This document shows positions 14,916 through 17,785 of a stretch of DNA of 64,000 nt, in pieces. Origin of the DNA: Curvibacter sp. GWA2_64_110 (GTDB lineage Bacteria; Pseudomonadota; Gammaproteobacteria; Burkholderiales; Burkholderiaceae_C); NCBI GenBank assembly GCA_001797315.1, contig MGPC01000035.1:1-64000 (forward strand). Direction: 5' to 3'. The notes below the pieces were generated by a model. That model had not been told where the DNA came from, searched no databases, and was given only the letters and a program-made list of their open reading frames with translations. Each line of letters begins with the position of its first letter. Position 1 is the first letter of the stretch. The translations under genes were made by a program, and so were the position numbers.

Positions 14916-14973
14916 AGTTGGGTGTCAACGGCAAATCGACACTGTGCAAAACGCTAAACTGTACCCATGGTGC

Positions 14974-15318
14974 GACTCGAAGTCGTTTCATTGATCTACG
15001 GATCAATTTTCAGGCCCTCGGGCCTTACTCATATTCCTGATCACATCCCCTCTCGGGGGGGCACATACTTACCCTTATTTTAGGGGCGAAAATGTGCAGC
15101 CGGATGGCTCAAGTTTGGCTGCACGAATACATCCCACAAGGATGGACTCACGTGTGTTTTGATCGCTTTTGCGCGATCAAAACGTTGCATACACACTACA
15201 TTTACACCCGTAAATGCAAGGTGTTACAAACTATTACATCTTGCACGTATCATGAAAACGAGAGCGACACCGCTCTCTGTGTCTTGTTTTCCACCAAAAC
15301 CACTTCTGGAACGAAGTG
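14974..15318. other. Hairpin-dense noncoding segment of unknown identity
   Basis: About ten consecutive perfect or near-perfect stem-loops; no recognisable protein; visibly AT-richer than neighbours. Confidence 0.6.
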
Positions 15319-15331
15319 ACCTCGACTGTAC

Positions 15332-17785
15332 GTGCGCCTGGAGTAATCCGGGGGTGCGGAGCTACGGTTAAACAACCCGCGCGCAAGTGCACAAGGCTGA
15401 CGTAAGTCAGTCCCAATCTCACGAACAAGACGTGGGGAGGTTGCCGGGGTAGAGGGTATGGGAAACGTAATGTGAACTCTCGTCTGAACCGTCGTTAACA
15501 GTAAGCAGCTAACTCTTGTCTCTCCCACAAGGGAGGAGCTGCGGCCAAAAGGCACGAAGTCAGGATGGGTCTGTCATGAACGGCTCATCGTTCCCAAACG
15601 ACTTCCGGCGGATAGGGAGCCCCTAACCCCCTCAGTCTGGCCGCCACCAGACTGGACACAGAGGGAAACGAGGTAAGCCCCACTCATCGCCAGCCCCGCA
15701 AGGGGCAGGCAACCTGCGAGCAATCAAAGGCCATGGTGGAGGGGGTAGAGGAAGAGGTAAGAAGCAAACGCCTGGCTGTAATGGACAGGATAGGGCTCAT
15801 GGCCTGCGGTGAAAACCGGCAGACTTGCCTCTGGTGCGACAGCGTAAAGCCGTTGCGACCTTAACAACGACCCAGAGGGCATCTGACCCTATGGGTCAGG
15901 GCCTTCTTCAAATGGGTTTTACCTAACTGGAGAATGGTATGGAAAACATCGGCAACGATGCTGCGTCTCCGGACGAATCAGATGACTGGCACTCCATCAA
16001 TTGGAAGGCCGTCATGCAATTCGTAGGAAAGGCGCAGATGCGCATAGCGCAGGCAGAAACAGAAAAAGACTTCCGCCGAGTCGCAAGACTTGCACGGGGT
16101 CTGATCCGATCCTGGCAGGCCAAGGCATTGGCCGTCAGGAAAGTAACGGAAAACCAAGGGAAGCGGACGAGTGGCATCGACTGCGTACTTTGGGACACGC
16201 CAACGAAAAAATGGAATGTGATCGGTTGTCTGAACTCTTCGGGATACAAGGCCCACCCCTTGCGGCGCGTCTACATCCCGAAAAGCAATGGAAAGGAACG
16301 CCCTCTGGGCATACCCACCATGAAAGACAGAGCCATGCAGGCGCTGCACCTGTTGGCACTGGAGCCTGCCGTGGAAAGTACGTCCGACCCGAACTCATAT
16401 GGGTTTCGGAAAGGAAGATCAACCCACGATGCTCGGCAACAGTTGTTTGTGTCCCTATCTCAGAAGGCTTCGGCCCAATGGGTTCTGGATGCGGACATCT
16501 CTGGGTTCTTTGACAACATCGACCACGACTGGCTGCTGAACCACGTCCACATGGACAAAGTGACGCTGCGGAAGTGGTTGAAATCTGGAGTAGTTGACGC
16601 GGGTCAGCTCCAGCGCACAGATGATGGAACGCCACAGGGCGGCATCATCTCGCCGACGTTAGCGAATGTCACCCTCAACGGTCTCGAAACTGGTCTGATG
16701 CGATTCCTCCGGGAAAAGTTGAAAGCCAAAGGGGCCACAGCGAGTAAGGTGAATCTGGTCAGGTATGCAGATGACTTTGTCGTAACCGGCAGTTCAAAAG
16801 AGCTGCTGGAAACAGTCGTTCGACCATGGATAGTTGAATTCCTGCGCGAGCGGGGACTGACGCTGTCTGAAGAAAAGACGCGCATCGTGCATATTGACCA
16901 GGGTTTTGATTTCCTAGGATGGAACTTCCGTAAATACGGGGGCAAGCTACTCATCAAACCGAGTCAGAAAAACGTGAAAGCGTTTTATGACAAGGTGAAG
17001 AAAATCATCGCCACATCACTATCGGTTCCAACAGAAACGCTGATACAGCGCCTGCGTCCAGTCCTCAAAGGCTGGGCTCAGTACCACCGCGGGACAGTCG
17101 CGAAACAAACCTTCAGCAAAATCGATCATCTGATTTATTGGAGATTGATGCGTTGGGGTCGACGCAGGCATCCGCGAAAAACCGGGAAGTGGGTATACGC
17201 CCACTACTGGAAACAGATCGACTTACGTCGTCTGTTCTCGGGCCTGCAAGATGACCCGTCGGGGAGTGACAAAAGGATACCGCTTCCGCTGTATTCCTTG
17301 GCGGACATGAAGATTGTTCGTCACGTCAAAGTGAAGGGGGACTTCAACCCCTTCCATCCCGACTGGGTTGCCTATGGAGAAAAACTGCGAGTGCAACGGA
17401 TGGGTGAAACCATCTGGAGCTCTCAAAGGGCTTCGCTGTGGTTCGACCAAGGTGGTAAGTGCGCTCACTGTGAGCAAGAAATAGACTTAGCTGATGAAAA
17501 CATGGACGACCACCATATCGTCTATCGGCAGCTAGGAGGGAGCGATGCTCTCTCCAATCGGGTGCTGTTACACCCGATCTGTCACAGGCGTGTTCACGCC
17601 CTAGGTTTGAAGGTTATCAAGCCGGTCTCCAGCACGGGAGACTTTAATCTGGTGAAGCAGTCGAAGGGTATGCAACCTGCTGACGCTGTGTAACCAGTGG
17701 TCGTGCGTGAGCCGTGTGCGGTGAAAGTCGCATGCACGGTTCTTAGGGGGGGATATCATTGAGAGATGGTATCCCTACCCTCCAT
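15332..17785 (+). mobile_element. Group II intron (chloroplast-like/CL type) with maturase ORF in domain IV
   Basis: 5' GTGCGCCTGG; DII-like CTGCGGTGAAAACCGGCAG; DIII-like CCTCTGG..CCAGAGG; DV GAGCCGTGTGCGGTGAAAGTCGCATGCACGGTTC (17709-17742); DVI hairpin with bulged A at 17777 and 3' AT end. Confidence 0.9.
15939..17693 (+). CDS. ltrA: Group II intron reverse transcriptase/maturase with C-terminal HNH endonuclease
   Basis: RT motifs YIPKSNGKERPLGIPTMKDRAMQ, GTPQGGIISPTLANV, RYADDFVV; HNH CAHCEQEI..MDDHHIVYRQLGG..LHPICHRRVH. Confidence 0.96.
   Translation: MENIGNDAASPDESDDWHSINWKAVMQFVGKAQMRIAQAETEKDFRRVARLARGLIRSWQAKALAVRKVTENQGKRTSGIDCVLWDTPTKKWNVIGCLNSSGYKAHPLRRVYIPKSNGKERPLGIPTMKDRAMQALHLLALEPAVESTSDPNSYGFRKGRSTHDARQQLFVSLSQKASAQWVLDADISGFFDNIDHDWLLNHVHMDKVTLRKWLKSGVVDAGQLQRTDDGTPQGGIISPTLANVTLNGLETGLMRFLREKLKAKGATASKVNLVRYADDFVVTGSSKELLETVVRPWIVEFLRERGLTLSEEKTRIVHIDQGFDFLGWNFRKYGGKLLIKPSQKNVKAFYDKVKKIIATSLSVPTETLIQRLRPVLKGWAQYHRGTVAKQTFSKIDHLIYWRLMRWGRRRHPRKTGKWVYAHYWKQIDLRRLFSGLQDDPSGSDKRIPLPLYSLADMKIVRHVKVKGDFNPFHPDWVAYGEKLRVQRMGETIWSSQRASLWFDQGGKCAHCEQEIDLADENMDDHHIVYRQLGGSDALSNRVLLHPICHRRVHALGLKVIKPVSSTGDFNLVKQSKGMQPADAV

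Follow-up and report, generated by a model that had tools for sequence, protein, structure and literature searches.

Group II introns are credited with three target specificities in a review of these elements, and insertion into promoters is not one of them (PMC4424553). Group IIC introns prefer a class of motifs over one homing site (PMC4424553); they insert at terminators or attC sites and contain no endonuclease domain. In other introns, the intron-encoded protein contributes to target choice by reading bases just 5′ of IBS2: the protein of TeI4h selects C-16 and A-15, that of EcI5 (both CL/IIB1) reads C-18, C-17, A-15 and A-14 (PMC2882425), and that of RmInt1 (IIB3/class D) recognizes G-16 and T-15 upstream of IBS2 (PMC8914252). 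RmInt1 has no endonuclease domain and favors replication forks. Promoter insertion is not reported for EcI5 or TeI4h, and the literature we searched, in which few subscription journals were represented, contained no promoter-inserting group II intron. For insertion at the boundary of a housekeeping gene, an example is the group II intron of Azotobacter that sits at the stop codon of groEL.

We analyzed a 64,000-nucleotide stretch of DNA from Curvibacter sp. GWA2_64_110 (hereafter the window), in which a dense array of hairpins lies between ffh and ccsA. Based on sequence comparisons, we propose that a group II intron, apparently complete, spans 14970-17783, that this array very probably makes up the 5′ third of its ribozyme core, with an expanded domain I, and that the intron belongs to a clade inserting just downstream of TAnnnT at predicted transcription starts. 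The best solved-structure match of the intron protein is PDB 6me0 (E 5.7e-164, over nearly the whole length), which we take to be the TeI4h RNP. The window intron resembles EcI5 and TeI4h in its EBS1/EBS2 logic and, as far as can be deduced for its clade, in protein reading just 5′ of IBS2, a trait that RmInt1 would also share. It differs in the bases that appear to be read, T and A in place of C and A, and its ORF begins at position 970 of the intron compared with 755 in TeI4h (PMC2882425). Unlike RmInt1 and the group IIC introns, it encodes an HNH domain. This domain and the location at the ccsA start codon place the intron outside group IIC and its attC-inserting members. Its clade shares with group IIC the preference for a class of motifs, but shows a covarying EBS2 and probable transcription-start sites. 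As with the Azotobacter intron, the insertion lies at the boundary of a housekeeping gene, whereas the clade appears to use promoters and start codons.

The limits of the insertion were established from intron-free relatives of the same genus (L006, L007), in which the ffh-ccsA spacer is short and reads CTGTACCCATG/ATTCTAGCG, with a slash for the junction. The window reads CTGTACCCATG/GTGCGACTCG...TACCCTCC/ATTCTAGCG, with ...CCCATG/GTGCGACTCG at the 5′ junction (14970) and CCCTCC (17783)/ATTCTAG at the 3′ junction. By this comparison, 14970-17783 is therefore an insertion that includes the array. Its first bases, GTGCGAC at 14970, are at the empty-site boundary and agree with the group II consensus GUGYG, and its last base, 17783, coincides with the end of the Rfam domain V-VI model RF00029 (69.7 bits, full length). 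A block of ∼25 bp ending in ...CTAAACTGTACCCATG, which carries the –10-like hexamer of ccsA, is conserved in many intron-free relatives. The features of the locus, all on the + strand, are as follows.

14955-14960, + strand: –10-like hexamer TAAACT (TAnnnT) of the predicted ccsA promoter, in the 5′ exon (site analysis)
14958-14962, + strand: IBS2 (ACTGT), partner of EBS2 (complementarity scan of 42 introns)
14964-14969, + strand: IBS1 (CCCATG), its final 3 nt being the ccsA start codon (complementarity scan; start codon from intron-free relatives)
14970-17783, + strand: apparently complete group II intron of 2814 nt, separating codon 1 (ATG) of ccsA from codon 2 (ATT) (empty sites L006 and L007; RF00029 end)
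14970-14986, + strand: intron 5′ end GTGCGAC and first hairpin, CGACT-cga-AGTCG (empty sites; hairpin scan)
14987-15300, + strand: hairpin array, the enlarged 5′ part of domain I (folding, covariation, length comparison)
15300-15443, + strand: match to RF02012 (group-II-D1D4-7), opening with the hairpin CACTTC-GAAGTG (Rfam)
15327-15371, + strand: internal helix CUGUA/UACGG around GTGCGCC, the earlier supposed 5′ end (covariation)
15498-15502, + strand: EBS2 (ACAGT), third base A invariant in the clade (complementarity scan)
15575-15580, + strand: EBS1 (CATGAA) (complementarity scan)
15939-17693, + strand: intron-encoded protein, 584 aa, with RVT_N, RVT_1, GIIM maturase and HNH domains; TIGR04416 (domain matches)
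17707-17783, + strand: domains V and VI, RF00029 (Rfam)

The window holds a single D5/D6 pair, and a twintron was rejected. Domain VI (17766-17783) contains an ATG in frame with ccsA; its use as a backup ccsA start was likewise rejected, since it is not conserved (absent in L033, L040, L047 and L113).

A sequence-only reading of the window had placed the canonical intron 5′ end at ∼15333 (GTGCGCC), so that the array would precede the intron, unexplained by its domains, as 5′ exon, landing site or independent RNA element. GTGCG is indeed present at this position as well, and the ∼607 nt that separate it from the ORF would be a normal length. However, the array is missing from the empty site and accompanies the intron to a second one: both occur at the same ccsA site in another species (L003) and at a different site, again starting with GTGCGACTCG, in two further species (L004, L005). 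Moreover, the two sides of 15333 pair with each other and show compensatory changes. GTGCGCC lies inside the helix at 15327-15371, in which 8 of 19 sequences are doubly changed at two pairs (alignment A1, columns 385-390/425-430; also helix 15 of A2). Finally, the sequence 5′ of 15333 is variable, and the pairing of the intron's EBS1 is at 14969. The empty sites, the second site and EBS1/IBS1 covariation all put the 5′ end at 14970, and we consider a start at 15333 extremely improbable. Two earlier suggestions, a non-autonomous hairpin element and a landing site for the intron, do not hold, because the array came in as part of the intron. An ordinary ffh/ccsA spacer is a poor fit too, the true spacer being ∼70 bp long and without hairpins.

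The description of about ten hairpins in a row was correct, both in sequence and in the hairpins listed. Ten perfect non-overlapping hairpins (stem of at least 5 bp, loop of 3-8 nt) are found in 14970-15331, at 14973, 14990, 15012, 15077, 15130, 15156, 15199, 15260, 15286 and 15301; dinucleotide shuffles (n = 1000) contain 1.6 on average and at most 6. In the shuffled-control check of folding energy, the RNA of 14964-15331 folds at –130.1 kcal/mol, far below the –90.8 ± 5.3 of the shuffles (z = –7.5); the opposite strand reaches z = –6.7, and arrays of other relatives also fold better than their shuffles, with z between –2.0 and –8.3. As had been noted, the GC content of the array (0.45-0.56) is lower than that of the flanking genes (0.60-0.71); it is roughly that of the intron 3′ of the array (0.49-0.61). 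No Rfam model matched the array itself.

The array is the first (5′) third of the group II intron RNA core and not a separate element. The stretch separating the intron 5′ end from the first position of the Rfam D1D4-7 core measures 55 nt in short forms, 156 in introns inserted in tRNA genes, 273-568 in the clade of the window and 468-692 in stop-codon introns (801 in L095). Since short-form relatives have only 55 nt here, as against ∼330 nt in the 5′ part of domain I of the window, the array represents an enlarged 5′ part of this domain. A first alignment of all 19 arrays was misaligned in the middle through indels, and covariation was therefore counted in ten like-structured relatives, leaving out the array of the window, whose middle hairpins are arranged somewhat differently. 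RNAalifold returned 104 pairs, 44 of them with double-sided compensatory change, compared with 18.9 ± 3.0 doubly changed pairs in shuffles, none of which reached 44 (0 of 500). In a pairing control, 94% of cells were paired and ∼40% after sliding by 1-3 columns. From this comparative evidence, we conclude that the array is a selected RNA structure. The earlier proposal of a structured RNA thus gains support from shuffled controls and covariation, while that of a separate element gives way to a part of the intron.

An array that is absent in short-form relatives and spans 273-568 nt in the promoter clade might also be of foreign origin, a hairpin element that transposed into the domain I of an ordinary intron. 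We regard this as very unlikely: the array is present, diverged and covarying across a large clade and its stop-codon relatives, shows neither an Rfam element nor a direct-repeat boundary, and was never found apart from the intron, being absent at empty sites and single-copy in the genome at BLAST level. A long domain I is found in promoter and stop-codon introns alike (L098, L099, L102 and L104 among the latter), and array length fails to separate them. Because stop-codon-inserting relatives carry the array too, its most likely role is that of a peripheral scaffold supporting folding and the binding of protein, not that of a targeting device. The array itself is ordinary intron RNA, a large domain I.

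Exon-binding sites were located by an unguided complementarity scan of 42 introns, in which each 5′-exon stretch was compared with every aligned intron position. The last six exon bases select one intron column (EBS1), with 6-bp pairing in 29 of the 42 introns, and the exon stretch 8 nt further upstream selects a second column (EBS2). Both pairings, EBS1/IBS1 and EBS2/IBS2, covary across more than 50 aligned related introns and work only with the splice site at GTGCGAC; the junction is therefore 14969/14970. In the window, EBS2 ACAGT (15498-15502) pairs with ACTGT (14958-14962), and EBS1 CATGAA pairs with its own exon only via CATG (4 bp). This short pairing may reflect drift, or arrival or seeding from another site. 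The window's EBS1 (15575-15580) is a better match to TTCATG than to its own exon (14964-14969). TATGGG near 15458 had been considered as EBS1 and proved wrong, as the 42-intron scan gave CATGAA at 15575.

For the description of insertion sites, 80 of ∼530 relatives found were retained. The clade is represented by 44 distinct sites, and in 40 of them TAnnnT, the core of the σ70 –10 element, ends 9-12 nt upstream of the intron; the background is 0.93% per four positions (binomial 7e-77, with no correction for relatedness, although each site is different). No TAnnnT peak at this distance is seen in 22 sites of relatives outside the clade. In 43 of 43 cases, the TA precedes the IBS2 hexamer by exactly 2 nt, while the distance from IBS2 to the junction varies; base 3 of EBS2 is A in all 43, and the first two EBS2 bases are free. 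The fixed register to IBS2 and the invariant base therefore suggest that the RNP itself reads TA and T. A –35 hexamer at 15-19 nt spacing is not enriched over flanks at the insertion sites (p = 0.22). As a hold-out, 400 genomes of the order Burkholderiales, most of them unused in finding the rule, yielded 12 further introns: TAnnnT occurs at the right distance in all six whose RT identity is 56% or more and in none of the six at ∼50% or less. A distant relative on the reverse strand (L131, RT 41%) lies 9 nt downstream of TATAAT. L131 is possibly an independent promoter-inserting lineage, and given this intron the TAnnnT rule may not be confined to the clade.

We also determined what lies behind the introns. 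On the same strand follow guaB, argH, rimO, dapA, ubiE, psd, tig, lepA, prfB, ilvB, ptsN and others; 26 of 30 downstream ORFs tested have a Pfam match, gene names beyond the Pfam family being our reading of the translations. At many sites the start codon is 13-35 nt past the intron. In the window's own subclade, the intron is usually located right after the ATG (ccsA, hemB, slt, yceD, M48 peptidase), as in the window, where it directly follows the ATG of ccsA at a predicted transcription start. At several sites the downstream feature starts within ∼6 nt of the junction. In L093 (ZTP) and L136 (SAH), a riboswitch begins at the junction; tRNAs start 6 nt past it in L132 and ∼60 nt past it in L084. 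Since transcription starts lie close to the beginning of riboswitches and tRNA leaders, we interpret the insertion sites as promoters, with clade junctions around +3 to +5 relative to the predicted start. Different introns (L074, L075, L076, L078, L082, L083) share one promoter sequence in several Pseudomonadaceae, with a trigger factor gene behind L074, and guaB is likewise targeted in several Sphaerotilaceae.

It is quite conceivable that no promoter preference as such exists, and that the RNP needs only TAnnnT beside IBS2 while purifying selection spares copies upstream of genes. The register of TA is fixed to IBS2 and not to the junction, a –35 signal is absent, and related proteins read two to four bases at this position (PMC2882425), all in favor of such a scenario. 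Nevertheless, at nearly all of 35 mapped sites a same-strand feature (gene, tRNA or riboswitch) follows at a short distance, whereas selection alone should spare antisense and gene-tail sites as well. Homing to the open promoter complex, with DNA melted by RNA polymerase as the single-stranded target, appears unlikely to us. The junction would fall on the downstream margin of the bubble expected there, and the recognition of bases 5′ of IBS2 by the protein usually acts in DNA melting (PMC2882425), but a register to IBS2 instead of the transcription start favors reading by the RNP itself.

A tree of the RT unites the promoter introns in a single clade (100/100) embedded among stop-codon introns, and within it one member (L091) has since moved to a stop codon; tRNA introns and short forms fall outside. 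Stop-codon insertion was observed for L091, L098, L099, L102, L104 and L139, several of them at a common gene end (...GGPNYPNM-stop), with an equally long hairpin-rich domain I. L114, L118, L130 and L143 occupy one shared tRNA gene (...TTCAATGGTAGAAC...TTCCCAAGC/GTGCGAC) and constitute a conserved tRNA-homing branch. A close relative of this betaproteobacterial intron is present on a contig binned as Akkermansia muciniphila (L039), probably a binning error.

For the promoter clade, we propose the following mechanism. The intron protein would read the T and the A just upstream of IBS2, while the final T of TAnnnT would be read by the invariant third base of EBS2; with the other EBS1 and EBS2 bases varying by site, the RNP could recognize an easily melted –10 element and reverse-splice there. 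The intron would then be transcribed from the host promoter behind a 5′ exon that, judged from the hexamer position, would comprise only 3-5 nt (AUG in the window), and splicing would restore ATG-ATT of ccsA. We think it reasonably probable that members of the clade splice with 5′ exons of only ∼3-5 nt, which in the clade of the window would be the AUG opening a leaderless mRNA.

A group II intron clade with a preference for promoters is apparently undescribed. If our interpretation is true, a retroelement has become specific for the core to which σ70 also responds, which would bring many promoters within reach and leave the mature message almost unaltered. Splicing of a ribozyme with a 5′ exon of three to five nucleotides would then pose a biochemical puzzle, and the clade could suggest tools for promoter-targeted gene insertion.
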